The notes beneath the pieces were generated by a model that saw nothing but the letters and a program-made list of their open reading frames with translations, did no database searches and was not told the origin of the DNA. Shown piece by piece: positions 3,050 to 20,442 of a stretch of DNA of 24,954 bases (positions within the stretch are counted from its first letter, which is position 1; each line of letters starts with the position of its first letter). This stretch comes from a virus. The position numbers and the translations under genes were made by a program. The DNA is taken from the IMG/VR virus record IMGVR_UViG_3300033148_001875, positions 1 through 24,954 of that record. One strand, given 5' to 3'.

Positions 3050-3050
3050 T

Positions 3051-5695: not shown

Positions 5696-6361
5696 TTATC
5701 CCTCCGGCTTGACGGTCTCGGGAACGGGGTCGAAGGCGATGCCCTCGAACGTCTCCGGCGTGGCATGGCGCAGCGCCGTCAGCCACACCTCCTCGTCGAA
5801 GTGCTGCCGGAACAGCTTCGCGAGGTCGAACGCCTTGTCAGGCTCCATACACCTACTCACTGCATACGTCTCCACGAGGTCCCAGTAGTGCTCCGGCATG
5901 TCCGGGTCCGCCGCGTCCGAGATCGTCGTCGGCTGCTTGATGTACCACAGCTCGTACGTGTCGCCGTTGGTCTGCGTGACCGCGCTGACCTCAAAGTAGA
6001 GGTCGTTGTTCTCGATGTACCAGAACGGATTACTCTCGCTCGGCACAATGATCGCGTCCGCCCGCAGGGCGTCCTTCTCCATCGCGGGCCAGTGCGTCGC
6101 CACAATGCCCTTGTACTTGACGAGGCGCGCCCGCAGGAAGTCGGTCGGGAGGTCATAGTTGCTCGTCCCACCCACCAGCGTGTCGCTCTCCACCTTCGTC
6201 AGGTGCGGGAGGGCGTTGTCCGCCAACAGATGCGCCAACTCCATGAAGCCCTCGTTCACGAACGCATAGATCTCCGCGTCGCTCCAGAGGTCGCCGTTGC
6301 GGTCGCCCAGCCGCGCCCGGATGGTAGCCTTGATGTCCTTCGCGTTGTCGCCTGTAGCCAT
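5696..6361 (-). CDS. Phage adaptor (head-tail connector) paralogue 3
   Basis: A 221-residue protein from ATG 6361, with AGGAG about 10 nt upstream. It has the features of the podovirus adaptor family (SU10 adaptor / gp6 / tail tubular A-like). An N-terminal helical pair, ATIRARLGDRNGDLWSDAEIYAFVNEGFMELA, contacts the portal ring. A central beta part has the signature YDLPTDFLRARLVKY (about 75-90). A strand YELWYIKQPTTI precedes C-terminal helices HYWDLVETYAVSRCME and LAKLFRQHFDEE. Such proteins form a dodecameric ring between portal and nozzle. It is the third of three tandem related genes and ends overlapping the next ATG by one base. It is closest in layout to the middle copy (6376-7035). 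A direct structural role is likely; how three copies divide the work is unknown. Confidence 0.85.
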   Translation of the reverse strand: MATGDNAKDIKATIRARLGDRNGDLWSDAEIYAFVNEGFMELAHLLADNALPHLTKVESDTLVGGTSNYDLPTDFLRARLVKYKGIVATHWPAMEKDALRADAIIVPSESNPFWYIENNDLYFEVSAVTQTNGDTYELWYIKQPTTISDAADPDMPEHYWDLVETYAVSRCMEPDKAFDLAKLFRQHFDEEVWLTALRHATPETFEGIAFDPVPETVKPEG

Positions 6362-6375
6362 CGGTCGTCAGCTCC

Positions 6376-7035
6376 TTACGCTGCGTCACCGGGCTTGCTC
6401 TCGTTTCGGCGCTTGTGCAGGCGGCTGTGACGCGCATTGATCCGGTTGATGCCCTGGATGTACTGAGCCCACATCCGCTCCGCCTGCTCCGGCTCCTGCA
6501 GCTGGTGCCACCCCAGCCACAGCGCGTAGTAGATGAGCAGGTGGTGCTTGTCCGCGGACAGGATCGGGTCCGTGTCCGTGTCCATGTCGGTCGGCTGCTT
6601 CACGTAGTGCAGCTTGTAGGCCCCCGTCGAAGCGTCGTCCCCGACCTCCATCTTCAGGCGCAGCGCCCCATCCGTCACGTCGTACCACAGGAAGTAGAAC
6701 GGCGTGGTCGTGCTCGGCGCCGTGAGCGTGTTGTTGTCGAGGGCGTCAAGCTCGGAGATGTTCCACCGCCGGCTGCGGATATCGGTGGCCCCGAACTCCA
6801 CGAACCGCTCGCGCACGAAGTCGGAGGGCAGCGCCACCCGCGAGTTCGTCAGCGTCCCCGACGCCACAGCCAGCATCTCGGGCATGGCGTTGTCGTTGAG
6901 CCGTCGCACGAGGTTGTGCTGAGCCCGGTTGAGGAACTTCCAGATGTCAGCCGTGAGGATGCCCGACTCGGAGACCTCCCCGAGGTAGGCCCTCACGCGG
7001 TCGCGCAGCGCATCAGCGGTATCTCCTGCAGCCAT
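6376..7035 (-). CDS. Phage adaptor (head-tail connector) paralogue 2
   Basis: A 219-residue protein from ATG 7035 (GGGAG about 10 nt upstream). The architecture is that of its neighbours: DALRDRVRAYLGEVSESGIL and IWKFLNRAQHNLVRRLNDNAMPEM at the N-terminus, then ALPSDFVRERFVEFG, then YKLHYVKQPTDMD, then helices HHLLIYYALWLG and AERMWAQYIQGIN. Direct matches to the downstream copy include NDNAMPEM versus ADNALPHL, LPSDFVRERFVEF versus LPTDFLRARLVKY and YVKQPT versus YIKQPT. These are signatures of portal-binding adaptor rings of short-tailed phages. Gaps to the neighbouring genes are only about 14 nt, consistent with one transcript. This is the most canonical of the three copies and a good candidate for the main ring. 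Confidence 0.87.
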   Translation of the reverse strand: MAAGDTADALRDRVRAYLGEVSESGILTADIWKFLNRAQHNLVRRLNDNAMPEMLAVASGTLTNSRVALPSDFVRERFVEFGATDIRSRRWNISELDALDNNTLTAPSTTTPFYFLWYDVTDGALRLKMEVGDDASTGAYKLHYVKQPTDMDTDTDPILSADKHHLLIYYALWLGWHQLQEPEQAERMWAQYIQGINRINARHSRLHKRRNESKPGDAA

Positions 7036-7049
7036 GTCTCATCAACTCC

Positions 7050-7694
7050 CTACGGGCCTCGATGCTGGACGCGCCCCGACCCTCCGCGCTGAATGGCCGA
7101 GGCCTTCTTCTCGTCGTCCAGGCGCTGCTCGATGTACAGGTCCTGCTGCATTGCCTCGTCGAACATCCCCAAGTGGCGCATCGCCATCGCCGACGCCTTC
7201 TGCACGACCAACTGATGCAGATGCACCGGGAAGCCCGGCTTGTCGCTGTCGTCTGCGAGCCTCGGCGGTTCCCCCACCACGTAGATCGTCACCGTCTCGC
7301 TGTCGGCGTCCGGGCACGGGTAGAGGTAGATGCGATCCCCGTGCTGCACGTAGAAGCGCGGCTCATTCTCCGCCGTGCTGCTCCCCTGCTTCTTCACCCA
7401 CTCGCCGATCGTCAGCGGCTCGAGCGTGTAGTAGTGGCCCTCCGCGTCCACGAACTTCACCCACAGGTACTCGCGGACGCTGCTCGGCACGACATACTCA
7501 TCCGTGCCGTCCACGGTGAGTATGTCGTAGGTGCAGCGCGTCCACCGCAGCTTGCGGTCGATCTCGTGGTAGGCGTCGTTGACCCAATTCGGCACCAGCG
7601 GGTTGACGAAGTTGCGAGCATCTCCCGCAAAGCGCGCGATGGTCAACTCCACCGCCTGCTTCAACTGAGCGTAGGTGTAGCCACCTGATCCCAT
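7050..7694 (-). CDS. Phage adaptor (head-tail connector) paralogue 1
   Basis: A 214-residue protein. I chose ATG 7694 (AGGAG about 9 nt upstream) over the in-frame GTG at 7700. It shares the adaptor plan: YTYAQLKQAVELTI, NWVNDAYHEIDRKLRW, a beta region with YVVPSSVREYLWVKFVD, a strand VTIYVVGEPPRLAD and C-terminal helices HQLVVQKASAMAMRHLG and DLYIEQRLDDEKKAS. It is the most divergent copy: the loop before the central strands is shorter and KQPT is replaced by GEPP. Being first in the adaptor run it could fill a different layer of the neck (for example stopper-like), while the other two form further rings. That division is speculation; membership of the family is well supported by the parallel layout. 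Confidence 0.82.
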   Translation of the reverse strand: MGSGGYTYAQLKQAVELTIARFAGDARNFVNPLVPNWVNDAYHEIDRKLRWTRCTYDILTVDGTDEYVVPSSVREYLWVKFVDAEGHYYTLEPLTIGEWVKKQGSSTAENEPRFYVQHGDRIYLYPCPDADSETVTIYVVGEPPRLADDSDKPGFPVHLHQLVVQKASAMAMRHLGMFDEAMQQDLYIEQRLDDEKKASAIQRGGSGRVQHRGP

Positions 7695-7706
7695 ACCCAC
7701 TCACTC

Positions 7707-8171
7707 CTACGCGGCGTCGAAGTCGCACTGGTACGTCACCTGCAGCGAGTTCCCGCTGGCGATGACCTCAGCCGTGAAGACGGAGCGCGAGAACAGCGTC
7801 CCACCAGAGCTCGCCGAGAGGATACCGACCTCGGTAATGCTCCGGTTCTGCGTCATCGTAATCGTCCCGACAGCCTGGTATGTGTCATCGGCCGTGTCCG
7901 TGGTCACCAGCGACTGCGTGCCGGTGGCCCGCGTTTCCACCTCTGTCTCCAGCGTCGTGTCCGCCGCAGCGGCAGCCGTGGAACCCGTCCCGATGCCGAT
8001 GTACTTCGCAATGCTCGGGTCGGCCACGTCGCCCGAGAGCGCCCCAGCCAGCCACGCGAGACCGGTGTTGACGACGAGGTTCGGCGCCTCCCACGTCTTC
8101 ACCAGCCGCCCGTCCGGGGTGAACTCGCGGAGGATGAACTTGCCCATGACCGTCAACTTGTTCTGCAGCAT
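7707..8171 (-). CDS. Tail fibre-like virion structural protein
   Basis: A 154-residue protein from ATG 8171, which directly follows the upstream TAA, with AGGAG about 10 nt before the ATG. It begins GKFILREFTPDGRLVKTWEAPNLVVNTGLAWLAGALSG and continues with YIGIGTGSTAAAAADTTL, then Thr-rich strands, TMTQNRSITEVGIL, TLFSRSVF and a final VTYQCDF. The sequence NLVVNTGL..(A)..L.G followed by IGIGTG..A....DT.L and EVGIL belongs to a widespread small phage beta-sandwich structural protein, usually near tail genes and often annotated as tail fibre or hypothetical. No enzymatic residues are evident. Its place between the repeat protein and the adaptors suggests an appendage or neck decoration. Family resemblance is recalled, not searched. 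Confidence 0.78.
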   Translation of the reverse strand: MLQNKLTVMGKFILREFTPDGRLVKTWEAPNLVVNTGLAWLAGALSGDVADPSIAKYIGIGTGSTAAAAADTTLETEVETRATGTQSLVTTDTADDTYQAVGTITMTQNRSITEVGILSASSGGTLFSRSVFTAEVIASGNSLQVTYQCDFDAA

Positions 8172-8828
8172 TTAGACCAACTCCTGGTACAGGTTCGAGC
8201 ACTGGTCGTCGTCGTCCTCGTAGCCACCCGGACACGACCCGGAGGGCCTCTCGAAGTAGCCGCCACTGCAGGCGCCGATGGCGCGGCACATCTCTGCAAC
8301 CTTCACGCGATCGGCGCACGAGAGCAGGTGTGCCACCACTAACACCGCCGCCGCCCGGCCCTCGCTGAGAGAGAGTGAGAGGGCATCGGAGGCCACTGCC
8401 CTAATCGCGCCTGCCCGCGCATCCGCATATTGGGTATTGAGCGTCTCTGTGAGCACGCTGCAGATGCGCCCTACCTCTGCGGAAGAGAGCGAGTGCCCGA
8501 GTACGTCGGCGATGACGCTCGTGATATGTCCGACCTGCAGGTCCGCCGGCTGCTGCGCAAGTACATCTGCGATGACTGAACGGATCGCCGCCGCCCGGCC
8601 CTCGCCGAGCGCGAGCGAGAGGACGTCGGAAGCCACCGACCTGATTGCACCTGCGCGAGCATCCACCAGAGAGAGGGCGAGGCCGTCGAACATGACCGCG
8701 TGGTCTTCGCCCGCCGCTGCCTCCAGCGCCCACCGATCCCGCGTGGCGTAGGTGAGGTCGATGTTCACATTCGTCTCAAACGCCATGCGTTCCCGCGTGG
8801 CCCTTGTGAGGTCTACGCTCTGTGCCAT
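8172..8828 (-). CDS. Repeat protein with six 20-residue units and a Cys-rich tail, unknown
   Basis: A 218-residue protein from ATG 8828, sharing one base with the upstream TGA (TGATG); the ribosome site is weak, so coupling may matter. Residues 1-40 contain two related segments, VDLTRATRERMAFET and IDLTYATRDRWALEA. Residues 51-170 are six consecutive units of exactly 20 residues with the pattern xxxLxxARAGAIRSVASDVL (G/A at position 10, I at 12, V at 15, L at 20). Residues 170-218 are Cys-rich (CADRVKVAEMC, GACSGGYF, GSCPGGY, DDDDQCS) with an acidic run. The regular period suggests a solenoid or long helical bundle, perhaps a fibre shaft, with a disulphide- or metal-bound tip. I do not know this family. 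Its place among appendage genes suggests a virion component. Confidence 0.78.
   Translation of the reverse strand: MAQSVDLTRATRERMAFETNVNIDLTYATRDRWALEAAAGEDHAVMFDGLALSLVDARAGAIRSVASDVLSLALGEGRAAAIRSVIADVLAQQPADLQVGHITSVIADVLGHSLSSAEVGRICSVLTETLNTQYADARAGAIRAVASDALSLSLSEGRAAAVLVVAHLLSCADRVKVAEMCRAIGACSGGYFERPSGSCPGGYEDDDDQCSNLYQELV
8319..8678 (-). repeat. Six tandem 60-bp coding repeats (20-residue units)
   Basis: These are the DNA units behind the 20-residue protein repeats. Units 1 and 5 share DARAGAIR(S/A)VASD(V/A)L; units 2 and 6 share a (L/S)xEGRAAA core; units 3 and 4 are more divergent. The alternation 1-2 / 3-4 / 5-6 suggests duplication of a two-unit block. All units keep the frame and exact length. 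Confidence 0.85.
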
Positions 8829-9511
8829 CAGTCCAACGCCCCCGAGGCGCTGATATCGCCAATGCGGAGCGTGCTCCCTGCCCCGCCAGCCGCGTCGCGA
8901 ATCTTCAGGATGACCTCCACCACGCCCTTGCAGTCCGAGGTGCCAGTGAACGTGATGTCGTGCTGCGCGCGAGTCGTGTTCGGCGTGATAGTATCACCAC
9001 TGTTGATCCCCGTCAGCCCGCACCGCCGGTCCCCAAGCTCCACCTGCACGGTGTCGATGCCGTTGCCAACCTCGGTCTCCTCCTGATAGAGCGTGAGCGT
9101 AATGTCGGTGCCCGTCTTCCCGCTATCGCAGCGAAATTGGATGCGGTAATAGTAGTAGTCCTCATCCTCTGACGGATCAATCTCGTCGGCCACACCATCA
9201 TCAAAATCGGCGTCGGTGACTTTCGTGCAGTCGCCGAACTGTTGCGCTGCGTAGCGAGCGCCGCTCACCTCATTGTGATTGGTGCTCACGTACCCAGCTT
9301 TCTCACGTATGCCCCAAACGCTTGGCGGCAGATCGCAGTTGAAGTAGCAATCATCCAGATACCCCGCCTCAAGCTCAGTGGAGCAGAGAGAAGAGATGGC
9401 CGAATCATTGCCGCCAGGATCACGCCCGAATGCACAATTCGTAGCATAGATCATTGATACATTATCGCCGAACTCTCTGCTGTCAAGGCCCCAAACATGG
9501 CAGTCTCGCAT
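8828..9511 (-). CDS. Tail appendage protein: beta-helix end plus beta-sandwich
   Basis: A 227-residue protein. The start chosen is ATG 9511, which shares its A with the TGA of the upstream gene (TGATG) and has GGAGGAGGG just before it; the ATG at 9526 has no ribosome site. Residues 1-70 look like rungs of a right-handed beta-helix (RDCHVWGLDSREF, YATNCAFGRD, YLDDCYFNCD), continuing the pattern of the upstream protein. After an acidic linker (DPSEDEDYYYYR, about 113-124) comes a beta-sandwich with TGTDITLTLYQEETEVGN, a Cys pair and a final TLRIGDISAS. Base composition is visibly more AT-rich at the 5' end than in neighbouring genes. It probably completes the upstream protein as the receptor-contacting end of a spike, or is a once-single gene now split. 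The role is inferred. Confidence 0.78.
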   Translation of the reverse strand: MRDCHVWGLDSREFGDNVSMIYATNCAFGRDPGGNDSAISSLCSTELEAGYLDDCYFNCDLPPSVWGIREKAGYVSTNHNEVSGARYAAQQFGDCTKVTDADFDDGVADEIDPSEDEDYYYYRIQFRCDSGKTGTDITLTLYQEETEVGNGIDTVQVELGDRRCGLTGINSGDTITPNTTRAQHDITFTGTSDCKGVVEVILKIRDAAGGAGSTLRIGDISASGALD

Positions 9512-10530
9512 CACCCTCCTCCACATACCGTGCCGAGACCGCTGTTTACCAGGAACTCGCAGCTATCGAGAAACACCTTCGCAGGCCTCGCGGCGGAAAC
9601 GGTCAGCCCAAAACGAGCCTTGGCTGATAACTGATAGTACCGCACGAGACGAAGCTCATTCAGCGGGCGTGGTTGCCAGCTAATAGGCGCTGAATACTCG
9701 TAGTCTGCATGATCCATATAGGTAATGCAGTCACAAATCCCGCCGTATAGCTTTACACCATCAGCGTTGACTATGCAATTTCTGAAAACACAGAAATCAA
9801 ACTCTGTGTCGGCGTCATTGATGTCAAGCAACGCCTCACTGAAACGTGCATAATCTGCATCCAATGTCCCGCCGGAGTGATTATCCCCTAGGACCGCTGC
9901 ATACGTTGTGAGACTCCCCGCCACCAGTGTGACGGCTTCCACAACATCATAGTCGTCGGCAAACACAATCTCGTCCCCGATGGCCCACCCAGTATCATCG
10001 TCGACGTCAAAGTCGACCGCATTCGCACCGTCCGCAGTGATGGCACCATCGAGCAGCGTAACGTCCGTCATGCCACTCGCGCCCTTGATCGTGTAGACAC
10101 CGCCATCATTGACTGTCAGAGCATAATCACCATGCACTTTGATGGTGTAGACATCGCTTCCACCACTACAGTCCTGTGTGATCGCGCCGCTGACACTCAC
10201 GGGCCCCCCCACAATGATTGTTCTGTCCCCGCCCGCCTCGAACGTGAGGAGCCCGCCACCGTTACCTCCGTCAGCCGCGATGGTCAGGGCGGTGAAGCAA
10301 TCCTCGTCGGTCATTTCAGCGGACACACGGAGCGTGCCGCCATCCTCAATCGTTATAGTCACAGTGCCATCGAGTGTCGCCATATCAATGTCGATGGTGT
10401 GTCCATTAAGCACGTCCACGTCATCAGCCTGCGCGCCGGTGTCGCCGGGATAACTGCCGTCACCCGCGTCCCAGACGGAGGCCGCGTCGCCGACCCAATC
10501 CCCGCTTCCTGCGCTGTTGTAGTCGGCCAT
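9511..10530 (-). CDS. Beta-helix tail spike/fibre protein with G8-like N-terminus
   Basis: A 339-residue protein from ATG 10530, overlapping the upstream TAA (TAATG), with GGGGAGG 7-8 nt before. The N-terminus, WDAGDGSYPGDTGAQADDVDVLNG followed by HTIDIDMATLDGTVTI and EDGGTLRVSAEM, resembles the G8-type Gly-rich beta repeats found in surface and phage proteins. The middle has repeated short strands separated by Gly/Asp turns (GGLLTFEAGGDRTIIVGG, YTIKVHGDYALTV). From about residue 235 Cys-containing rungs appear (FDFCVFRNCIVNADGV, VFLDSCEFLVNSG), typical of right-handed beta-helix fibres. The protein stops abruptly at GTVCGGG, within the rung pattern, and the next gene carries it on. Lower GC than its neighbours suggests horizontal gain, common for host-range genes. 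No enzyme site is visible. Confidence 0.78.
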   Translation of the reverse strand: MADYNSAGSGDWVGDAASVWDAGDGSYPGDTGAQADDVDVLNGHTIDIDMATLDGTVTITIEDGGTLRVSAEMTDEDCFTALTIAADGGNGGGLLTFEAGGDRTIIVGGPVSVSGAITQDCSGGSDVYTIKVHGDYALTVNDGGVYTIKGASGMTDVTLLDGAITADGANAVDFDVDDDTGWAIGDEIVFADDYDVVEAVTLVAGSLTTYAAVLGDNHSGGTLDADYARFSEALLDINDADTEFDFCVFRNCIVNADGVKLYGGICDCITYMDHADYEYSAPISWQPRPLNELRLVRYYQLSAKARFGLTVSAARPAKVFLDSCEFLVNSGLGTVCGGG

Positions 10531-11096: not shown

Positions 11097-11708
11097 TCAT
11101 TTCGAGCAACCGCAGGACCAGCTCGCCAGCCGCGAACTCGATGCGGTCGCCGACCCCACAGTCCTTTTCGCGATCTCAAACCAGTTCGTACCGGAGTCGA
11201 TGACCAGCGCAACAACGTTGTTCTCGGCACTGAAGTTCTGCGCGTTGATGAGCACGAGGTCTCCGGCGGCGGGCTTGGCACTCGTGATCTCGGGGTCCGT
11301 GCCGGTGGTATCCCACGTGTAGCGCATAATCGAGCCGCTCGGATTGGTGATGTCGAACTGCGTGTCCGATGACCCGAGGGACTCACCCAGCATGAGTTCC
11401 CCGTACGCAACGAGGTTTCCGCCCGTCTCCGCGTCGTATAGCGCCCAACCGACAATAGTACCCAGGTCGGCGGTACTGGCCGCAGACGGGACGTACTCAG
11501 CAGCGGTGTTCGCCATCACGCCCACTGAGGCAGCGTCGAAGGCTACAGATGCCCGCCCATAGTTCCCGCCGCTCGCTTCCACAAGCCCTGTACCGTCCGG
11601 GTTCGTCGGCAGCGTGGTCAACAGCGCCAGCCACTGCCCGTCCGTGTCGATTGCGTCGAGTATGCGGTCCGCCTGGTACTCGCTCAGAAAGAATCTCTTG
11701 TCAGCCAC
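11097..11708 (-). CDS. Gp80-like phage tail fibre/structural protein
   Basis: A 203-residue protein. The start is GTG 11708 with AAAGGA about 10 nt upstream. The sequence follows a widespread phage pattern: WLALLTTLPTNPDGTG(residues 25-40)-VEASGGNYGRASVAFDAAS, then NTAAEYVPSAASTADLGTIVGWALYDAETGGNLVAYGEL. This matches the tail fibre proteins often called Gp80 family, in which a GG.Y.R..V.F motif is followed by strands and a GT[IV]xxxxxYDAxTGGNL block. An extra C-terminal segment (VLINAQNFSAENNVV) leads to a Ser-rich, Cys-containing end (LASWSCGCSK). It is most likely an appendage protein on the virion. The family assignment is from recalled motif shape and not from a search. Confidence 0.82.
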   Translation of the reverse strand: MADKRFFLSEYQADRILDAIDTDGQWLALLTTLPTNPDGTGLVEASGGNYGRASVAFDAASVGVMANTAAEYVPSAASTADLGTIVGWALYDAETGGNLVAYGELMLGESLGSSDTQFDITNPSGSIMRYTWDTTGTDPEITSAKPAAGDLVLINAQNFSAENNVVALVIDSGTNWFEIAKRTVGSATASSSRLASWSCGCSK

Positions 11709-11762: not shown

Positions 11763-12668
11763 CTACAGGCCCAGCATCGTCTCTCTGTCGATGTAGCGGC
11801 CCCAGCAGGGACTGACGTGCGTCTGGTCGGGCTCGGCAACCTCCACCACGTCCGTGACGGCCAGCGGGACGATGACCGGTGGCGGGATGCTCTCCTGCGG
11901 CTCTGCAGCCTCCACCACGTCCTTGGCGGTCACCTCATGCACGATCGGGTACGGCGGCGGCGTCGGATCGCCGAGGCGGTCGTCCACCAGCACCACGTCC
12001 GTGACGCTGATCTCCACGGGCGCTTCTGGCGACGTGTACCGCATCCCCCGAAAGGCCGTCAGGTCGGCAGCCAACCCCCCGCTCGTCGCGTCGCCAACGG
12101 TCGCCTCCGCCCCATTGTTGTCCATCGTCAGCAGCACACTGTAGTCGCGGGCCTCCTCCGACACGTTCGCCGGGTCCGGCCACGCATGGTAGCCAGTGCC
12201 GTCACTGTCCACGCGACCATCATCAACACCGCTGTCGTACGTCAGCCGCATCTCCGCGTTGTCGCTCCACGCAAACACGTAGATCGTCGCGGCTGGCGGG
12301 ATCGCCACCACATCCGTGAAGGTCAGGACGATGGCCTCGCCGCCCTCATCCACAGCTTCCGTAGCCACCTGCGTCGTCCCCAGCAGGTTCAGGTCCTCGT
12401 CGTAGACGGCGCCCTGGAAGGCCGCCTTGGCCGCTCCGGGCATACTCCGCACCGCGAAGATCGTCATGGTCTGCGCCGTGATAGCCATGTCCTCGGGCCT
12501 TTCTGCTGGGCTGGGCGCAGGCCCCCGTGGCGCGATAAGCGCGTCGTCCTGCGTGACCGCCACGTCCGCCGGCGCATCGGCCGGCATGTTGGCCGCTATG
12601 ATCGCCAGCACCAGCACGCCCAGCACCAGCGCCACCATCCACAGATTCTCTCGCGCGTCCCTGCTCAT
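11763..12668 (-). CDS. Membrane-anchored beta-sandwich protein with C-terminal VTDVV repeats
   Basis: A 301-residue protein from ATG 12668, which overlaps the acyltransferase TGA (ATGA); GGGAGG is close upstream. Residues 10-28 form a hydrophobic segment after RDAREN (MVALVLGVLVLAIIAANM), which predicts an N-terminal membrane anchor or uncleaved signal. Residues about 66-180 form a beta-sandwich like the one inserted in the nozzle protein (GAVYDEDLNLLG, IYVFAWSDN, WPDPANVSEEARDYSV). Residues 219-279 carry three loose repeats around VTDVV/AKDVV separated by PPP-rich linkers. A membrane anchor is odd for a virion tail protein. It may be displayed on the cell surface during infection or be inserted by the virion. 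Function unknown. Confidence 0.76.
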   Translation of the reverse strand: MSRDARENLWMVALVLGVLVLAIIAANMPADAPADVAVTQDDALIAPRGPAPSPAERPEDMAITAQTMTIFAVRSMPGAAKAAFQGAVYDEDLNLLGTTQVATEAVDEGGEAIVLTFTDVVAIPPAATIYVFAWSDNAEMRLTYDSGVDDGRVDSDGTGYHAWPDPANVSEEARDYSVLLTMDNNGAEATVGDATSGGLAADLTAFRGMRYTSPEAPVEISVTDVVLVDDRLGDPTPPPYPIVHEVTAKDVVEAAEPQESIPPPVIVPLAVTDVVEVAEPDQTHVSPCWGRYIDRETMLGL

Positions 12669-13219
12669 GGTCCTCCCGCCCTCTCATTGAACTGCGCGCA
12701 CCACGGGCACCCGTCCTCCTCGCCGAGTGGGGCCCAATGCTCGAACGCTGTCCCGACCATGTGCTTGTCCCGGTCGCGGATTACCCGCGCCGGGTTCCCT
12801 ACCACGATCTTACCCGGCTCCACGTCGCGGATCACCATGCAGCCCATCCCAAGGACCGCGCCCTCCCCGATCGTGACACCGCCGAGGATCATGGCCCCAG
12901 CGCCGATCACCGCATGGTCGCCGATCGTGACCCCCCGTGCCGTCCACTGCTTACCCACCATCGGCGTCGGGTCGTTGGACAGAAAGGCCTGCGGGCCGAT
13001 GAAGACGTAGCTGCCGACCTCCGCGGGGTCGTGTAGCTGCGCCATGTTCCCCACATGCGTACAGTTCCCGATGGAGACGCCGGGACCTACATGGGCCCCG
13101 TGGCCGAGCACCACGCCCTCGCCGAGCACCGCGTCCTCGCGGACGTAGGCATGATGCCAGACGTCGCAGGTCTCCGGCACCGTTGCGCTTGGATCCACTA
13201 CCGCACAGTACGAGATCAC
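12665..13219 (-). CDS. Hexapeptide-repeat acyl/acetyltransferase (left-handed beta-helix)
   Basis: A 184-residue enzyme. The start is GTG 13219, overlapping the upstream TGA by 2 bases (GTGA), with GGGAGGG about 9 nt before. Almost the whole chain is hexapeptide rungs: AVLGEGVVLGHGAHVGPGVSIG, THVGNMAQLHDPAEVGSYVFIG, then GVTIGDHAVIGAGAMILGGVTIGEGAVLGMGCMV and the terminal GNPARVIRD. The layout is like sugar O/N-acetyltransferases of the WbpD/WlbB group, which acetylate UDP-aminosugars in surface polysaccharide synthesis. The C-terminal CPWC may bind metal. Together with the upstream methyltransferase-kinase and glycosyltransferase it forms a sugar-tailoring module. The acyltransferase fold is confident; the acceptor is unknown. 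Confidence 0.88.
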   Translation of the reverse strand: MISYCAVVDPSATVPETCDVWHHAYVREDAVLGEGVVLGHGAHVGPGVSIGNCTHVGNMAQLHDPAEVGSYVFIGPQAFLSNDPTPMVGKQWTARGVTIGDHAVIGAGAMILGGVTIGEGAVLGMGCMVIRDVEPGKIVVGNPARVIRDRDKHMVGTAFEHWAPLGEEDGCPWCAQFNERAGGP

Positions 13220-14427
13220 TCGCTGTCACCCTCCCGTCGCAACTTGTAGATGAGGCGCTGTTCCGCGCAGTACGGCCCGCTCACGATCTCCTCCACCGCA
13301 AACCCCGCCTTCGCCGCCTGGCTCTTCACCCACAGCGGCGGCAGGTGCCACGTCCCCGCATACAGCGCATCGTCCGGTTTCAGCGGTGCCTCCCCCATCC
13401 AGAACGGCGCTTCCACCACCACCGCATCGCAGGCCGCCAGCACCTTCTGCAGCACAGCCGCCGGGTCCGCCACACGGTGCAGCACGTTCAGCAGCAGCCC
13501 CAGCGAGTACCGCCGCCCCTCGTAGAGGTCGTTGAGCTGCGGCAGGGCCTCGGTGTCAACGTCCACACGCGCGCACGTCACCGGCTGCCACTGGCGCGTC
13601 CGAACATGCTTCAGCAGCGCCATCGCACTCTCCAGCACGTCCACCGCCACGCAGTACGTCGCGCCGCGGTTGAGGCTCTCGAACGAGAAGCCCCCCTCCA
13701 TCGCGCCCACGTCCAGCACCGTCATCCCGGCCATGTCCTCGGGCAGCACGGCGTCCAGCCGCGCCTTCTCGAACGCCCGCCTGCCAGGCGCAGCATTGCC
13801 GAACCATGTGCAGCTGACGTGGAGGCACTGCTGGTACTGCGGCGCACCCACGTCGGCGAAGTTGGGCCGGCCGTATGGTGCAGTAATGAGCGCATTGGCC
13901 TCCTCCACCGACACCTCGCGCACCGGATAGTCCGTCGTGTCCACCAGCAGCAGGTCGCCCGGGTCCGCCGCACGCGCCTCCAGTTCGGCGACATCGCAAT
14001 GCGCGAACTGCCAGCGCGTGTAGGCCCAGTGGTTGACGATGTTCGCGGGCGTTGCCCGCTCGTCGAGGAGGTAGCGCGTCCGGCGACGCGCCGCCACCAT
14101 CCAGGGCGGCGCCAGCACGTAGCAGTTGACCAGCCGCACGTCGTCGGGCACCTGCTCGGCCAGCGCCGGGTAGGTCACGCAGGGCTCGACCACCGCCACG
14201 TCATGCTCCTCCAGGGCCCGCTCCACAATGGGCCAGACGCGGTTGCCCTCCTTGTGGGGCTTGGTCATCTCCCCCACTTCGACGAACGTGAAGCCGGCGT
14301 CCATCGCCTCGCGCAGCAGCGGCACGTCGATGAGGTGCGCGTCACCGGCCTGCATGGCGCGCACCACCGCCGTCTTGCCCGCCCCCGCGGTGCCCCGCAG
14401 GGCCACGACTGTCTTAGACGGTGCCAC
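13216..14427 (-). CDS. P-loop kinase fused to SAM methyltransferase
   Basis: A 403-residue fusion. The start is GTG 14427 with GGAGGT 8 nt upstream, overlapping the glycosyltransferase end by 14 bp. The N-terminal half (about 1-180) has a Walker A motif GTAGAGKT at 12-19, RRRTRYLLDE at 114-123 as a possible lid, and LLVDTTDYP near 160-168, like small-molecule kinases of the AAA_33/zeta type. The C-terminal half (about 205-400) has a class I methyltransferase core: VLDVGAMEGGFS at 237-248 (SAM motif I), an acidic VAVDV at 261-264 (D263), LGLLLNVLHRVADP and AVVVEAPFW. The likely chemistry is phosphoryl transfer plus methylation on one substrate. The glycan context suggests sugar phosphate-methyl capping, analogous in concept to WbdD, but that is inference. 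Alternatives are modification of DNA bases or of virion proteins. Confidence 0.87.
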   Translation of the reverse strand: MAPSKTVVALRGTAGAGKTAVVRAMQAGDAHLIDVPLLREAMDAGFTFVEVGEMTKPHKEGNRVWPIVERALEEHDVAVVEPCVTYPALAEQVPDDVRLVNCYVLAPPWMVAARRRTRYLLDERATPANIVNHWAYTRWQFAHCDVAELEARAADPGDLLLVDTTDYPVREVSVEEANALITAPYGRPNFADVGAPQYQQCLHVSCTWFGNAAPGRRAFEKARLDAVLPEDMAGMTVLDVGAMEGGFSFESLNRGATYCVAVDVLESAMALLKHVRTRQWQPVTCARVDVDTEALPQLNDLYEGRRYSLGLLLNVLHRVADPAAVLQKVLAACDAVVVEAPFWMGEAPLKPDDALYAGTWHLPPLWVKSQAAKAGFAVEEIVSGPYCAEQRLIYKLRREGDSE

Positions 14428-15523
14428 TGTAGAGCACCTCCGTGCATGGCTCGATACCGTCGTAGATGTTCTTCAGCCGCGCTACCACCGCCGGAACCGA
14501 ATGCACGTCCTCGATGTACTTGCGGCCCTTCTCTGCCCAGTGCTGGCGCAGTTCAGGGTCGTTGCGCAGATCCCGCACCCACTTCCCGGCGGTGTCGCGA
14601 GTGACGTAGATCCACGGCAGGTCCTCCGGGCGCTCCACTGCCAGCGCCTGCATCTGGTACTGCAGCTCCTCCTCCGTGCAGCTACAGAGGGCCGGTATCC
14701 CCATCGCCATAGCCTCATACGTTGCCACGCCCGGCCCGTAGAGCAGCGTCGCGAAGTAGATGTCGCATTGCGACAGCAGCCACAGGGACTGCCGCTTCTG
14801 GACGCCATGCCACGGCACGAAGCCGATCGTATCGTCCTTGCACATCTGCTCGGTGACGAGCTTGGCAATGCCGAGCGAGTCCTTGTTCTCGACGACCGTG
14901 TAGCCGTGGCCCACGAGGAACTCGTTCTCGGGCTTGACCCACTGCGGGTAGTTGCCGTCGAGTTCCTCGAGATCAATCGGCGAGGGGAGCCACGTCGCCC
15001 ACGGGACGTGCATGAGCAGGTCCGGCGTGGACACGACGACCTCCCAGCCGGCGTCGCGTTCCTGCCATGCGATGGGCGGGTCCTCGCGCAGGGCGACGCC
15101 GTGGTGGTGCATGAGTACGCGCGTCTTCCCGACCATCTCCTCGCGGAGCCTGCCGAGGAACTCCCAGCTGCACCACGAGTTCAGGTGCAGGACGTCGCAG
15201 GAGCGGATGAGGTCGTCGAGCATCTTGTGCTCGCGGCCGTCCGGGTCCTTGTAGTCCACCTTCCAGAAGTGGCGTTCCTGCAGCCAGGACGGCTCGGCCG
15301 TCATGACGCCCCAGTAGGACCAGTTGGTGTGACGGAGGAAGCCGGTGGCGAGGGTGCTGCCGATCTCGCAGATGTTGCGCGAAGAGACGTTGACGCAGCA
15401 GGGCCCCTCGCGGGCCATCTCCGCTCGGAAGGTTGGGTTGCTTGGCGCGCGCGCGGGCAGGATGCGCTCAATGGTGAAGTTGCCCTGCTCGGTCGTGCCG
15501 GTGCGCAGCAGTTGTGTCGGCAT
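14414..15523 (-). CDS. GT4-type glycosyltransferase
   Basis: A 369-residue protein from ATG 15523 with GGAAAGGAG 5-6 nt upstream. The N-terminal half is the acceptor-binding Rossmann-like domain, with LHLNSWCSWEFLG (about 112-124) and VLMHHHGVAL. The C-terminal half has the GT-B donor site DIYFATLLYGPGVATYEAMAMG (about 254-275) followed by IPALCSCTEEE, the E-x7-E-type region of GT4 enzymes. These enzymes move a sugar from a nucleotide-sugar donor to a glycan, lipid or protein. This gene opens the modification module, immediately after a strong hairpin. Donor and acceptor cannot be told from the sequence. Possible targets are virion proteins, host cell-surface glycan or modified DNA bases. Confidence 0.87.
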   Translation of the reverse strand: MPTQLLRTGTTEQGNFTIERILPARAPSNPTFRAEMAREGPCCVNVSSRNICEIGSTLATGFLRHTNWSYWGVMTAEPSWLQERHFWKVDYKDPDGREHKMLDDLIRSCDVLHLNSWCSWEFLGRLREEMVGKTRVLMHHHGVALREDPPIAWQERDAGWEVVVSTPDLLMHVPWATWLPSPIDLEELDGNYPQWVKPENEFLVGHGYTVVENKDSLGIAKLVTEQMCKDDTIGFVPWHGVQKRQSLWLLSQCDIYFATLLYGPGVATYEAMAMGIPALCSCTEEELQYQMQALAVERPEDLPWIYVTRDTAGKWVRDLRNDPELRQHWAEKGRKYIEDVHSVPAVVARLKNIYDGIEPCTEVLYSGTV

Positions 15524-15551: not shown

Positions 15552-15588
15552 GTGGCGGGGGCCGCTGAGGAGGGACGGCCCCCGCCAC
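15552..15588 (-). terminator. Strong 13-bp GC hairpin between decoration and glycosyltransferase genes
   Basis: Plus-strand 52-64 (GTGGCGGGGGCCG) pairs perfectly with 15576-15588, around an 11-nt loop. On the leftward transcript no U-run follows it, so it is probably a leaky attenuator or an RNA-stabilising end behind the highly expressed capsid genes, not a full terminator. Confidence 0.6.
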
Positions 15589-15605: not shown

Positions 15606-15992
15606 TTAGCTCGGCTGCCCCGCGCGGTAGTGCAGATGCAGGTCCGAGCTACCGAAGTTCTCGGGCTTCTCCTCCGCCACGACAACAAGCGTCCTCCCGA
15701 ACGCATTGCCGCCATTGAAGCCCACCCAGAACTTGCCCCGCGTCGCCGCCTCGGTCTGCGTCAGAACGACCTTCGCGACGCCGGGGAAGTTGGTCGTATC
15801 CAGCATCGCCAGGGCGTTGGTCGAGTCGGCTGCGGTGCCGGTCGAGACAGGCAACACCTCCGCCTTCGGACTGCCCGTGGGCGTGTTGTTCCACGGCGTC
15901 ACGTAGTCAGTCCCCGACACCAGCGGAATGAAGACCGTCCGGTCTTCGTCGTCCTGCGCTCCCTGCTGGATGTACTGCACAGGGAAGTCCAT
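15606..15992 (-). CDS. Putative capsid decoration/stabilisation protein
   Basis: A 128-residue protein from ATG 15992, with AGGAG about 10 nt upstream in a leader (AGGAGCTGACG) shared with the adaptor gene at 6361. It directly follows the major capsid gene. Strand-rich features include DRTVFIPLVSGTDYVTPWNN, LTQTEAATRGKFWVGFNGGNAF and GRTLVVVAEEKP, with no enzyme motifs. Position just after the capsid protein and before a strong hairpin is the classic place for a head decoration or cement protein. The role is inferred from position; it could also be a small head-completion protein. Confidence 0.72.
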   Translation of the reverse strand: MDFPVQYIQQGAQDDEDRTVFIPLVSGTDYVTPWNNTPTGSPKAEVLPVSTGTAADSTNALAMLDTTNFPGVAKVVLTQTEAATRGKFWVGFNGGNAFGRTLVVVAEEKPENFGSSDLHLHYRAGQPS

Positions 15993-16028: not shown

Positions 16029-17183
16029 CTACGCGTCCGCGCCGGGCAGCCTCACGGTGCCCAGGGCGAAGTCGCCAACCGCCATCGTCGGGTCGATGTT
16101 GACCATGCGGAACTGCGCCCTCCGCGACGTGCAGGCCGTGTCACCCCAGATGAAGTACTGGTTGTGTACGCAGTCGTAGTCGAGGATTTCGTGGCGCCAG
16201 CCGTCCTCGTGCCACTGGAACGAGCCGTTGCGGTTGTAGATGAACTTGAAGTGGTTGAAGTTGATCCCGTAGGCGTCGTGACCCTTCGCGGCCTTGACGG
16301 TCGTCTGACTGGGCACGAACGCCTCTCCGTAGCAGTCGCGGTCGCGCACGATCGGCACGTCCAGCACCCAGAGGGCCGAGAAGCCCCATCGGATGATGTC
16401 CGTGTCCTTGTAGGCGGCGCGCTGCTGGGCGTAGTCCTGGGCGGGCACCTGAGCCTTCAGGGCCTGCCATGTGTCCTCGGAGACGACGATGAGGTCGGGC
16501 TTCTCATCGCAGGTGCCCTCGGTCTGCTCCACGATGTACTCGAAGTTCTGCATCGAGGGTGCGACCGCTTCGATGGCGCTGTCCACGGTGTCGCCGTACA
16601 TGCAGTGGGCTTCCCACGTCTCCTGGTTCGAGACGGTCGGGTCCACCCCGCCGTAGGTGTTCGCGTACCACATGCACTGATCCAGCGTCCTCATGCCGCT
16701 GACGCTGGTCACTGAGTCCACGGCCTGGCCGGTCCCGATGTCGCCGGTGCCGTCGCTGCCGCGCGTCTGGAACAGGTCGGAGGACATGTCCTTGCGCACC
16801 GACTTGATGGCGTTGTTCATGTAGGTCTTGTGGAGATCCACAAGGCCCTGTCCAGAGGTCTGCTTCTTGATGTCCTGGGTCGGGATCTGGACGTGGAGCA
16901 GATATTCCCCCGTCTCGTAGTCGGCGGTCGAGGCGATCTCGGGCGACCAGACGGCACCGAGGGCGAGGTTGGTCTTGCGCGTGTAGCGCCGCCCCGACTG
17001 CGTGCGAAGCTCGATGGCGGGCTGCCACGAGACGCCGCCGACGGGCTTCATGTGCTTGCGCATCTTCGCCCAGACCGGCTTCGCGATGAAGATATTGTCC
17101 ACGAGGTCGCGCGGACGCATGGCCCGCGTCAGGGCGTAGAACGTCGCCTTGGCGTTCGCGATGGAAAGCTGCTGTTCAGCCAT
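16029..17183 (-). CDS. Major capsid protein (HK97-fold type)
   Basis: A 384-residue protein from ATG 17183 with GGAGGT about 8 nt upstream, itself inside a small hairpin. It follows the scaffold gene. The N-terminus resembles an N-arm (ANAKATFYALTRAMRPRDLVDNIF). The body contains alternating helices and strands: YETGEYLLHVQIPTQDIKK (about 89-107), a helix around RKDMSSDLFQT, then DLIVVSEDTWQALKAQV, WVLDVPIVRDRDCYGEAF, KFIYNRNGSFQWHEDGWRHE and C-terminal RRAQFRMVNIDP. Length, gene order and the late P-domain-like segment match capsid proteins of large short-tailed phages. It forms the icosahedral shell around scaffold and portal. The identification rests on context and sequence pattern. Confidence 0.87.
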   Translation of the reverse strand: MAEQQLSIANAKATFYALTRAMRPRDLVDNIFIAKPVWAKMRKHMKPVGGVSWQPAIELRTQSGRRYTRKTNLALGAVWSPEIASTADYETGEYLLHVQIPTQDIKKQTSGQGLVDLHKTYMNNAIKSVRKDMSSDLFQTRGSDGTGDIGTGQAVDSVTSVSGMRTLDQCMWYANTYGGVDPTVSNQETWEAHCMYGDTVDSAIEAVAPSMQNFEYIVEQTEGTCDEKPDLIVVSEDTWQALKAQVPAQDYAQQRAAYKDTDIIRWGFSALWVLDVPIVRDRDCYGEAFVPSQTTVKAAKGHDAYGINFNHFKFIYNRNGSFQWHEDGWRHEILDYDCVHNQYFIWGDTACTSRRAQFRMVNIDPTMAVGDFALGTVRLPGADA

Positions 17184-17218: not shown

Positions 17219-18337
17219 CTACGGTGCAGGCACGGAATCGAGCAACGTCCCTGCAGCAACTTGCCGACTGGCCCACTCGTACACTTCGTCGAAGCCGCGT
17301 GGGATGTCGGCCCCGCTGGCCCCCTCGTGTCCTGTTGGGGGCGTGGCAGGGGTCAGTTGGGACGCAGCGGCCTGCTGCTGGCGGGCGTGGTTCTTGCCTG
17401 CCTGCGTGGCCTGTGCGTCAGCCTCAGCGTAGAGCGCGTTGTAGGCGGTGCGGATGGGCTTGGGCTCATTGAGGAGCGACGGGTGCCGCTCCAGGTAGGC
17501 GTTGAGCGCCTGCATCCGCTCGGGTGTGGCGACCTGCGGCTTCTCCTCGATCAGGCTGTCAAGTTCGGACTTGAGGTTCTGAGCGAGGGCCTGCCGCTGG
17601 CGCTCCTCGAACTGGTGCGCCGTCTCATCGACGCGCTGCTGGAGGGGCTGTACTTCCTGTCGGGCGGCGTCCTCGGCGGCGCGGCGGGCAGCGTATGTGG
17701 CGAACTCGACGAAGTTGGGCTCTCTGCCGAGCTGCTCGTTGAGCTGCTGGTAGAACTGCATACCGTTGCCCTGCATCCACGCGAGGGCGCCATCCTGCCC
17801 CTGCTGCTGTGGCTGCTGCTGCTGCGATCCCTGCTGCTGCACTCCGGACTGCTGGTCGTGAAGCTGCGCCTCGCGCGCGGCCAGTGCGGCCTCGCGGGCG
17901 TCCAGCGCATCCTCACGCCGGGCCGTCTCCTCCGTCTTTTGTGAGTAGTCGTCCTGTCGCATCAGGTAGCGGTCGAAGACCTCGGGGTTCTCGGTCGCCC
18001 ACTGCACCTTCTGCTCGGTCGTCATGGAGGCGAGGTCCAGCTTGTCCGGGTGCTGCCCCTCCCACGGCTTCGGAGACGTGTCGGAGGCCGGCTCCGGTGT
18101 CTGCGGGTCCGCGGTGGTATCAGCGCCGGGTGCGTCCTGCCCTCCTGCGTCAGTTGTGCCCTCTGCGGGCGGCTGTCCGTCGTGACCTGTCGGTGAATCG
18201 AACTCCAGCGGGTCCATACCGTCCGGGACATGCAGGCTACCATCGACTGCTATGCCCTCCGGCATGTTGCCCGGCCCGAGGTCGATGTCCGGTGTCTCAA
18301 CGGGTCCGCCCTCCGGGGCGAAATCTTCTCGTCGCAT
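17219..18337 (-). CDS. Scaffolding protein
   Basis: A 372-residue protein from ATG 18337 with GAGGAG about 6 nt upstream. The N-terminal ~95 residues are acidic, Gly/Pro/Thr-rich and probably disordered. A coiled-coil core follows, with heptads EETARREDALDAREAALAA and REAQLHDQQSG (about 135-165), a Gln-rich stretch, and helices ATYAARRAAEDAARQEV, QRVDETAHQFEERQ and NLKSELDSLIEEKP. The end is again Ala/Gln/Pro-rich. The place between portal and capsid genes, the acidity and the helical content are what phage scaffolds show; they guide capsid assembly and leave before packaging. No protease motif is visible, so removal may rely on exit and not cleavage. Confidence 0.85.
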   Translation of the reverse strand: MRREDFAPEGGPVETPDIDLGPGNMPEGIAVDGSLHVPDGMDPLEFDSPTGHDGQPPAEGTTDAGGQDAPGADTTADPQTPEPASDTSPKPWEGQHPDKLDLASMTTEQKVQWATENPEVFDRYLMRQDDYSQKTEETARREDALDAREAALAAREAQLHDQQSGVQQQGSQQQQPQQQGQDGALAWMQGNGMQFYQQLNEQLGREPNFVEFATYAARRAAEDAARQEVQPLQQRVDETAHQFEERQRQALAQNLKSELDSLIEEKPQVATPERMQALNAYLERHPSLLNEPKPIRTAYNALYAEADAQATQAGKNHARQQQAAASQLTPATPPTGHEGASGADIPRGFDEVYEWASRQVAAGTLLDSVPAP

Positions 18338-18349
18338 GATCTACTCCTC

Positions 18350-20311
18350 TCAGGCTGTTGGTTGCGCCTGCGGCTGCATCTGGCCCGCCTGCTGCGCCAG
18401 TGCCAGATACTGCATGACCAGCGCATACACGTCCTGACCGAGTTCCTGCACCGTCTGCATGAACTCGGCAATCAAGCCCTGATCGCTCATCGTCCCCGCC
18501 ATCAGCGACTGCAGGAACGTGAACATCTCCGGCGGGAGCAGCTCCTGAAGCTGCTGCGCAATCACCTGCATCTGCTGCTGCGCCGCCGCCTGCGTCTGCA
18601 TCTGCTGCTGCATCTGCATGGCCTGCTGCTCACCCGCGGCCTCGGCCTGCAGGACCTGCTCCTTGCGCTCCTTGATCTTGTCGCGACCCGGGAACTGCAC
18701 CGCGTCCAGCGTCGCCTCGTCGTCCACCACGGTCATCTGCACCGCCGACGACGGGATCTGCTTGAGCTGTATCGCCATCTCCGCCCGCGCCGAGGCCGAC
18801 ATGGGGATGTCGCCGCCCGGCTGCGTGACTACCACGTAGCGGCGCGGTTCCGTGTTCATCTCGGGCAGTGTCTCCCCACCCTCCTCGATGAAGTTGCCGG
18901 TGGGCTCCTCGCGCGAGAAGTCGTCGGCGCCGATCTCCACCAGGCTGCCGCCCGCCTCCTCCACAATCGCCAGCTGCCGGTCGTCCGAGTAGTGCTTCTG
19001 CATCAATTCGAGGACGCGCTGGCCCAGCTGACCCTTCGCATGGGCCCAGTTGGCCGCGGGGCCCGTCATCCGCTGCTGCGCCGCCTCGTGCAGCACCTGC
19101 AGGGCAATGCCGGTGTTGACGCCGGTGGGGCGCAGACCTCTGGTGACCTCGACGCTGCCGCTGATGTTGTCGAGGTCGGCCTTGGAGTTCTGAATGTGCG
19201 CGAAGACATCGGAAGGCAGCGGCGGCGGCCAGTGCGCTGTGACCTCGCTCCCCTCCTCACGGAGGTTCATCGACCCCGGCGTCGTGTCCCAGGCTTCCTT
19301 GAGCATCGACGACGTGGTATCCCAGATGGGGTTGACCGCCAGCAGGTGCCAGATGTTGACCTTCGTGTTGCCGGTGTTGATGCGGTTCTGCGGGTCGATC
19401 AGCTCCTGCACGAGGCCCACGGGCCAGAAGTTGTCATCGCGCGTCTCGAACTCGTAGAAGTGCAGCGGGTAGCGGTGCGGCAGCACCTCGCTCTTCGGGA
19501 CGGGGCTCGGGCCATCGTGCAGCGTCTGTTCGCCGGAGTAGATCATCAGCCGCGCGCCGAAGTCGTAGTAGACCTCCCACACGACGATGCACTCGGCCGC
19601 CTTCGTCTCGTTGATCTCCTCGTCGCCGAGGAACTCGTCCGTCTCCCCCGCCGTGGTGAGCACCTTCGCCAGGTCCAGCTTCGGCCACATCTTCAGTGCC
19701 CGCTCGATGCCGTAGAGGTTGCGGATGGCAACGTAGGAGCACTCCTCCAGCTTCAGCGCCGTGGGGTCCGGGAAGATGTTCTCGGGCCGGACCGAGCTGA
19801 CGACGACCTCGCCGCGCCCGCCGCCGTAGTGCTTGTTCCACCACGGCTTCAAGACACCGAGGCCGACCTGCAGGGCATTCGAGATGACCATCTTCTCCTC
19901 CGCCTCGTAGCTCACGAACTGGCGCCAGGCGCGGAGGTAGGTGGTCACGCGATCGGCGGCCCCGTCGGCCTCCCCGGAGCCGAGTTCGACGACGTACCAG
20001 GCGGGGAGGGCGCCGACGATGGTGGAGACGAAGGTACTGCAGGCGGTCTTGGTGTGGTTGGTGACGCTCCAGGTCGATTGCAGGTGGGTGGGTAAGTCGG
20101 GGGCCACTTTGTCCCAGTTCTGGCCGGGGCCGGCGTAGAAGTCGCGCAGGTTGGTCCAGGAGACGGAGCTGTCGTGGCCTGCAGCGTGGTGGTGCTCGGC
20201 TTCGCGCTGTGCTTCTTTGACGAGGTCATGGAGGCGGGTCCGCTTCTCGTCGTCCGAGAGCGGTCCTTCCTGCTGGTCAGTGGCCGTCAGCCGCCGGTCG
20301 ATGAGTTCCAA
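18350..20311 (-). CDS. Portal protein
   Basis: A 653-residue protein. The start is TTG 20311 with GAGAGGAGG 8-9 nt upstream; no nearby in-frame ATG has comparable support. The long N-terminal helical region is followed by portal-like patterns: WSVTNHTKTACSTFVSTIVGALPAWYV, RVTTYLRAWRQF, VGLGVLKPWWNKH, VVVSSVRPENIFPDPTALKLEECSYV (crown/wing region) and YYDFGARLMIYSGEQTLH. The stem segment DNFWPVGLVQELIDPQNRINTGNTKVN is a conserved portal signature. The C-terminus is a Gln/Met-rich coiled coil from about residue 560, likely the barrel. Portals form the dodecameric DNA channel at one vertex and bind the terminase and adaptor. It sits after the tRNA-bearing gap and before the scaffold. Confidence 0.9.
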   Translation of the reverse strand: MELIDRRLTATDQQEGPLSDDEKRTRLHDLVKEAQREAEHHHAAGHDSSVSWTNLRDFYAGPGQNWDKVAPDLPTHLQSTWSVTNHTKTACSTFVSTIVGALPAWYVVELGSGEADGAADRVTTYLRAWRQFVSYEAEEKMVISNALQVGLGVLKPWWNKHYGGGRGEVVVSSVRPENIFPDPTALKLEECSYVAIRNLYGIERALKMWPKLDLAKVLTTAGETDEFLGDEEINETKAAECIVVWEVYYDFGARLMIYSGEQTLHDGPSPVPKSEVLPHRYPLHFYEFETRDDNFWPVGLVQELIDPQNRINTGNTKVNIWHLLAVNPIWDTTSSMLKEAWDTTPGSMNLREEGSEVTAHWPPPLPSDVFAHIQNSKADLDNISGSVEVTRGLRPTGVNTGIALQVLHEAAQQRMTGPAANWAHAKGQLGQRVLELMQKHYSDDRQLAIVEEAGGSLVEIGADDFSREEPTGNFIEEGGETLPEMNTEPRRYVVVTQPGGDIPMSASARAEMAIQLKQIPSSAVQMTVVDDEATLDAVQFPGRDKIKERKEQVLQAEAAGEQQAMQMQQQMQTQAAAQQQMQVIAQQLQELLPPEMFTFLQSLMAGTMSDQGLIAEFMQTVQELGQDVYALVMQYLALAQQAGQMQPQAQPTA

Positions 20312-20338
20312 CGCTGCCGCCTCCTCTCTGTTTCGGTC

Positions 20339-20408
20339 CTCCGCTCCCCGGCCTCGAACCGGGCATCCACCGCGGGTAGCGATGTCGGCCGCCTGGGCCC
20401 CGAGCGGA
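20339..20408 (-). tRNA. tRNA-like cloverleaf, degenerate (anticodon would be ACC)
   Basis: Reading the minus strand from 20408, a perfect 7-bp acceptor (TCCGCTC/GAGCGGA) closes a cloverleaf. It has a short D arm (GGC/GCC), a 5-bp anticodon stem CATCG/CGGTG with loop CTACCCG, and a perfect T arm CCCGG-TTCGAGG-CCGGG. Oddities are G at position 8, a 7-nt D loop, two bases between D and anticodon stems, C at 37 and no encoded CCA. The anticodon ACC (Gly) is not usual in bacteria. It may be a decayed tRNA or a tRNA-mimicking RNA. It lies 34 nt downstream of the CAU tRNA. Confidence 0.45.
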
Positions 20409-20442
20409 GGAACCAGTTACCGGGCGTCCCCGGAAAGTTGTC

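Follow-up and report, generated by a model that had tools for sequence, protein, structure and literature searches.

Glycosylation of virions influences how antibodies recognize them and probably also their adsorption and stability, and to our knowledge it has been shown to be phage-encoded in a few cases only. Mycobacteriophages Che8 and Rita are reported to bear capsid glycans that are made via phage-encoded glycosyltransferases (Freeman et al. 2023, as cited in PMC11256854). On the bacterial side, WbdD phosphorylates the terminal mannose of the O9a O-antigen and then methylates that phosphate, which completes the cap (PMC3482155). Glycan capping with methyl-phosphate by fused methyltransferases and kinases has evolved with different folds of the kinase, as in Klebsiella O3 and O7, and the ORF6 protein of Klebsiella O7 has an N-terminal methyltransferase and a kinase related to the amicoumacin kinase AmiN (PMC11231755). 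Here we describe a viral locus in which genes for a predicted glycosyltransferase (GT), kinase-methyltransferase fusion (KMT) and acyltransferase (AcT) follow the capsid genes. The enzyme classes are known, the fusion and the location are unusual, and our searches did not find the cassette elsewhere. With transfer, phosphorylation, methylation and acetylation encoded together near a capsid gene, virion decoration could be put to the test as a viral pathway in its own right.

Gene layout of the cassette and its surroundings

The window, a 24,954-base IMG/VR virus record that is probably a genome fragment, carries all of its credible genes on the minus strand (Table 1). In the direction of transcription, small genes are followed by genes for TerL, tRNA-Met, the portal, a scaffold-like protein, the major capsid protein (MCP) and p128, then by the cassette, and beyond it by the gp80-like fibre gene, several structural-looking genes, three SU10-type adaptors, the protein matching phrog_511 and the DNA methylase. 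The source virus is a podovirus of the P22/SU10 type that is very distant from known ones, with portal relatives at 18-25% identity at most. p128 is a possible head decoration protein.

An earlier note on this DNA had described three overlapping genes (12665-15523) between capsid and tail genes, and the ORF list bears out their coordinates, motifs and overlaps. The overlap is 14 bp between GT and KMT and 4 bp between KMT and AcT, GTAGAGKT lies at KMT residues 12-19 and VLDVGAMEGG at residues 237-246, hexapeptide rungs are present in AcT, and the MCP lies upstream with the gp80-like fibre gene and adaptors downstream. The three-gene module is real but was drawn too narrowly, as a fourth gene had been missed: that of the 301-aa protein, which overlaps AcT by 4 bp (ATGA) and is translationally coupled to it. 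This protein had no match in family searches. A purine-rich ribosome-binding site precedes each cassette gene. Third-position GC is 0.90 in GT, 0.90 in KMT and 0.83 in AcT, compared with 0.92 in TerL, 0.91 in the portal gene and 0.93 in MCP. Because this codon-position composition fits that of the structural genes and that of antisense ORFs does not, the cassette ORFs are taken to be real genes; the possibility of a mirror-ORF artefact of high-GC DNA was rejected, as long antisense ORFs show the wrong codon-position pattern. No convincing direct repeats marking an insertion were found at the flanks.

A hairpin separates p128 from GT. The stretch folds at -44.5 kcal/mol, so its description as strong holds, but in GC-rich DNA it is only modestly above chance (z -2.4, 3 of 200 shuffles equally good). 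It has no T-run and was not listed by the terminator scan. In Paenibacillus phage API480, a relative, terminators are annotated at the matching place behind the capsid gene, and by this analogy the hairpin could plausibly serve as an attenuator and reduce the expression of the module behind it. A processing site behind the capsid genes is a possible alternative.

Table 1. Features of the window, listed in the direction of transcription (positions in bases unless given as residues)
Feature	Position	Strand	Description	Match or basis
TerL	20731-22407	-		
Portal	18350-20311	-	P22/SU10-type	
Scaffold-like gene	17219-18337	-		
Major capsid protein (MCP)	16029-17183	-		phrog_9953 major head protein, E 2e-10
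p128	15606-15992	-	128-aa protein between MCP and cassette	family search: none matched
Hairpin	15552-15588	-	14-bp stem, 9-nt loop, between p128 and GT	folding
GT, predicted glycosyltransferase	14414-15523	-	369 aa, ATG start	
KMT, predicted kinase-methyltransferase fusion	13216-14427	-	403 aa, GTG start	
KMT, predicted P-loop kinase domain	residues ~1-193			
KMT, predicted class I SAM methyltransferase domain	residues ~205-403			
AcT, predicted acyltransferase	12665-13219	-	184 aa, GTG start	
301-aa protein	11763-12668	-	N-terminal membrane anchor and three VTDVV-type repeats (repeat family D2)	
gp80-like protein	11097-11708	-	podophage GP4 fibre I	Pfam Gp80 54 bits, cut-off 27
SU10-type adaptors (three)	7050-7700, 6376-7035, 5696-6361	-		
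Large protein	3051-5486	-		phrog_511
N4/N6 DNA methylase	2318-3184	-	ordinary	

Predicted enzymes of the cassette

AcT can be securely predicted to be a left-handed beta-helix (hexapeptide) acyltransferase, and this part of the earlier note is firm. It scores 74.2 bits against Pfam Hexapep (cut-off 27) in four stretches, its best solved relatives are QdtC (3fs8, E 8e-19) and a WlbB-type enzyme (3mqg, E 3e-17), and it has the NDPTP motif in common with QdtC. The QdtC and WlbB-type families act on nucleotide-linked amino sugars, and AcT is probably an amino-sugar N-acetyltransferase as judged from these matches. Against TIGR03570 (NeuD/PglB/VioB) it reaches 85.5 bits, short of the curated cut-off of 160.8, and we therefore regard it as a relative rather than a member of that family.

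KMT had been read as a P-loop kinase fused to a SAM methyltransferase, a reading that is firm for the methyltransferase and probable for the kinase. A typical SAM motif I is present in the C-terminal half, whose methyltransferase match at residues 233-340 lies behind the kinase in a protein that ends at residue 403. Methyltransf_12 (E 6.7e-6) and TIGR04290 (E 6.7e-7) match below cut-off, the latter at 29 bits against a curated cut-off of 300. Comparison with glycan-operon methyltransferases by hhalign gives 96% (E 2.8e-9; unrelated control 0.1%), with 42% identity over 48 columns in a motif block around PEDMAGMTVLDVGAMEGGFSFESLNRGA. In the plasmid search the nearest KMT relatives are likewise methyltransferases, aligned over the methyltransferase domain only, and in three plasmid neighbourhoods glycosyltransferases, UDP-glucuronate decarboxylase or mannose-1-phosphate guanylyltransferase are encoded beside them. 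The assignment of this half as a SAM methyltransferase nearest to bacterial glycan-operon proteins is thus a secure prediction.

The N-terminal half of KMT carries the Walker A motif GTAGAGKT and is a probable P-loop small-molecule kinase, with gluconate and APS kinases as its best match. It aligns with E. coli gntK, idnK and cysC at 71% (hhalign, E 3.7e-5, residues 7-49), compared with 0.2% for cysN and 1.1% for yjgR as P-loop controls; the full-length alignment, judged by eye, also pairs the last strand (ADPGDLLLVD). Pfam recognizes the P-loop weakly (AAA_33, E 0.076), and no library searched names a kinase in KMT. Nucleotide sugars are phosphorylated by zeta toxins and antibiotics by CPT, both P-loop kinases of similar general fold, which makes a sugar a reasonable substrate for the KMT kinase. 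The kinase and methyltransferase halves may nevertheless act on different molecules. AlphaFold2, run without a useful alignment, returned pLDDT 40 for KMT and 35 for GT, and these models are worthless.

GT is probably a divergent GT-B/GT4-like glycosyltransferase. Its Pfam matches to Glycos_transf_1, Glyco_trans_1_4 and Glyco_trans_1_2 (E 0.008-0.012) all fall below the cut-offs, at 16.1, 16.4 and 16.0 bits against 26.4, 27 and 25, and its EX7E motif is incomplete (LLYGPGVATYEAMAMGIP), with the second Glu present and the first replaced by Tyr. Aligned together with its relative from virus L035, it matches a set of six GT proteins at 59.6% (hhalign, E 8.9e-5) over residues 97-357, which span both Rossmann domains; alone it matches at 17.3%, and the TerL and MCP controls give 0.1%. 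The GT4 label given to it earlier thus stands as probable from profile comparison, and fails at the Pfam cut-offs and the EX7E motif.

Distribution among viruses and plasmids

At the sensitivity of the scans used, no relative of the KMT fusion was detected in 50,697 phages, 72,556 plasmids, IMG/VR or GTDB; the scans of the IMG/VR and GTDB collections rest on short peptide patterns that distant relatives can escape. With the same scope, GT relatives were found in neither annotated phages nor GTDB contigs, and in IMG/VR in L035/L036 only, and tblastn against phages to E 10 returned short or weak matches only for both KMT and GT. Two sets of candidates were discarded. Of thirty IMG/VR contigs that contain LDVGxxEGGF, most carry a methyltransferase-like ORF that is unrelated and lies close to TerL in marine phages. 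In Streptomyces phage StarPlatinum (gp43) and Arthrobacter phage Gorpy (gp33), one gene each matches weakly and the cassette is missing.

The earlier note had made its reading depend on related phages carrying the cassette as a unit at this locus. It is absent from all five portal relatives examined (L002, L046, API480, Shocker and AP1), which at portal identities of 25% or less shows an accessory insertion and not an absent function. In these five, the capsid gene is followed by small genes only and then by adaptor or tail genes, and searches of their whole records for Hexapep, GT4 and KMT were negative. The cassette is therefore interpreted as an accessory insertion that is dispensable in the group. 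In L035/L036, from an unrelated tailed virus, a GT-like gene directly behind MCP is 37% identical to GT over 81 aa and is followed by an overlapping GT2-like gene and then a head-tail gene. The clearest hint of a virion target is that GTs of one family follow the capsid gene in two unrelated viruses.

Candidate pathway, its target and comparison with known systems

We tentatively propose that the cassette is a late-expressed accessory module that builds and caps a sugar decoration, with a virion protein as the most likely acceptor. The module would comprise the four overlapping genes inserted between the head and adaptor/tail genes. AcT would N-acetylate a host-made nucleotide-activated amino sugar, and GT would transfer a sugar to an acceptor, for which virion proteins such as that of the capsid, p128, the 301-aa protein or a fibre are the likeliest candidates. 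The P-loop domain of KMT would then phosphorylate a sugar hydroxyl, and the methyltransferase domain would methylate either this phosphate or an adjacent hydroxyl. The resulting cap would be neutral and chemically unusual, and the pathway would resemble WbdD-type methyl-phosphate capping in its action. In this scheme the roles of AcT and GT follow from enzyme class and that of KMT from its fusion and precedent; we infer the substrates, the order of steps and the virion target. Support comes from the tight coupling of GT, KMT, AcT and the 301-aa gene, the proximity of AcT to nucleotide-amino-sugar N-acetyltransferases and of the KMT kinase to small-molecule kinases, the encoding of methyltransferase relatives among glycan genes, and the location of the cassette, with capsid genes before it and a fibre gene after it; that five distant relatives lack it supports an accessory module. 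As a counterpoint, GT scores below the Pfam cut-offs and has Tyr at the first EX7E Glu, and the cassette is a single case.

The earlier note had left the acceptor as the virion, the host surface or DNA; a sugar-modifying module is still the best reading, and location makes us lean towards the virion. The strongest rival, which we nonetheless regard as unlikely, is that the module acts on the surface of the infected host cell, for example by adding a cap or an acetyl group to a surface glycan, and thereby keeps progeny or rival phages from binding, as in receptor masking or superinfection exclusion. Known kinase-methyltransferase caps do act on surface polysaccharides, the methyltransferase relatives lie in surface-glycan operons and a membrane anchor is present in the coupled 301-aa protein, but GT, KMT and AcT have no obvious one, no flippase or GtrA/GtrB-like partner is present in the window, and late placement among head and fibre genes would be odd for exclusion. 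Quite unlikely is that the genes serve no common pathway and are unrelated accessory genes acquired as an island, each with its own role in small-molecule or RNA chemistry, KMT acting for example on a nucleotide or RNA end. That would agree with the general resemblance of its kinase to small-molecule kinases and with weak matches of its methyltransferase half to FtsJ and TlyA RNA methyltransferase models, whereas the overlapping genes, their matching codon-position composition and a common logic of sugar activation, transfer and capping favour one pathway. Hypermodification of phage DNA bases to evade restriction, with the enzymes acting on a hydroxymethylated base, is improbable: P-loop kinases and glycosyltransferases are generally known from phage base-hypermodification pathways, and the discussion of one paper describes phage glycosyltransferases as often DNA-modifying (PMC12619734), but no TET/JBP or hydroxymethyl-base synthesis gene was recognized in the 25-kb window, itself a genome fragment, AcT and the methyltransferase resemble sugar-pathway enzymes, the phage has an ordinary DNA methylase and the cassette sits in a late structural operon.

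A more specific form of the virion-decoration proposal is that a P-loop kinase-methyltransferase of new architecture adds a methyl-phosphate cap to a virion glycan, working with its own GT and AcT. We consider it doubtful in this full form; if true, no virus would have been known before to encode an entire sugar-capping pathway within its structural operon, and methyl-phosphate capping of glycans would have originated independently for a third time. With KMT, a reaction described to date for the capping of bacterial O-antigens would gain a new pairing of folds, and the cassette enzymes could serve glycan synthesis.

We know of no kinase-methyltransferase fusion or acetyltransferase in mycobacteriophage virion glycosylation. 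The mycobacteriophage glycosyltransferase genes lie near the 3' end of the genome, a location stated for Maravista, whereas the cassette lies inside the structural operon and is known from its genes. The L035/L036 pair is like the cassette in the N-terminal region of GT, the position behind MCP and the overlapping genes, but has a GT2-like partner and a shorter GT (266 aa) where the cassette has KMT and AcT. AcT shares the left-handed beta-helix and Hexapep repeats of QdtC, WlbB and NeuD-type N-acetyltransferases, and unlike them is phage-borne and below the NeuD/PglB/VioB cut-off. Glycan-operon methyltransferases of the TIGR04290 type have the motif block in common with KMT, whose fusion to a kinase sets it apart. 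Klebsiella O7 ORF6, part of a large coiled-coil/GT protein, is a case of such glycan capping with another kinase fold, its reaction being similar to that of WbdD with an unrelated kinase, and differs from KMT in its AmiN-related kinase and N-terminal methyltransferase. WbdD (E. coli O8/O9a, Klebsiella O3) likewise joins a kinase and a SAM methyltransferase in one polypeptide in a glycan context, but its methyltransferase is N-terminal, its kinase has the eukaryotic-type protein kinase fold, rightly distinguished in the earlier note from the P-loop of KMT, and it ends in a long coiled coil (PMC3482155). KMT was accordingly rejected as a WbdD on kinase fold, domain order and coiled coil: it is viral, with the P-loop kinase N-terminal, the methyltransferase C-terminal and no coiled-coil extension.

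The stretch absent from the relatives

The ~8-kb stretch of the window that is missing from the distant podovirus relatives has a gp80-like fibre gene close to each end, the 154-aa product being a weak match (E 0.014); repeats occur in two genes of the region (see table). The two ORFs at 8828-10530 look like a single beta-helix protein broken by a frameshift near 9511-9526, where a GGAGGAGGG run is found. No ribosome-binding site was found upstream of the second ORF, and GC is reduced there. The split may represent a programmed shift, a pseudogene or an assembly error.

Positions of features in the window and in L035
Feature	Position	Detail
N4/N6-type DNA methylase	2318-3184	flanked by tail genes
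SU10-type adaptors, three in tandem (Pfam)	7050-7700, 6376-7035, 5696-6361	span 5696-7700
gp80-like fibre protein	7707-8171	154 aa
79-nt duplication	8346-8664	within 218-aa gene
Putative beta-helix ORFs	8828-10530	339 aa + 232 aa, 16-bp overlap
gp80-like fibre protein	11097-11708	
Three 34-nt repeats (VTDVV units)	11763-12010	3' end of 301-aa gene
tRNA-Gly(acc) (ARAGORN)	20338-20409	
Pair of a GT4-like and a GT2-like gene with overlapping ends	L035 5993-7710	immediately behind capsid gene; likewise in L036

Adaptors, methylase and tRNA

All three adaptors are paralogous and lie far above the Pfam cut-off; the relatives examined encode fewer. The DNA methylase carries DPVW in place of DPPY/DPPW, the customary motif of N4/N6-type enzymes. 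The acc anticodon of the tRNA-Gly call is uncommon among bacteria, and Rfam detected the adjacent tRNA-Met alone; the call is probably a false or decayed tRNA.

Comparable loci in other viruses

Marine phages (contigs L005, L007, L009, L014, L026 and others), which have a distantly related TerL, encode a large ORF ~2-3 kb behind TerL with the methyltransferase motif LDIGGTEGGF; this ORF is unrelated to the kinase-methyltransferase. IMG/VR records L035 and L036, from a tailed virus unrelated to the window's, provide a second instance of a head operon with sugar enzymes.
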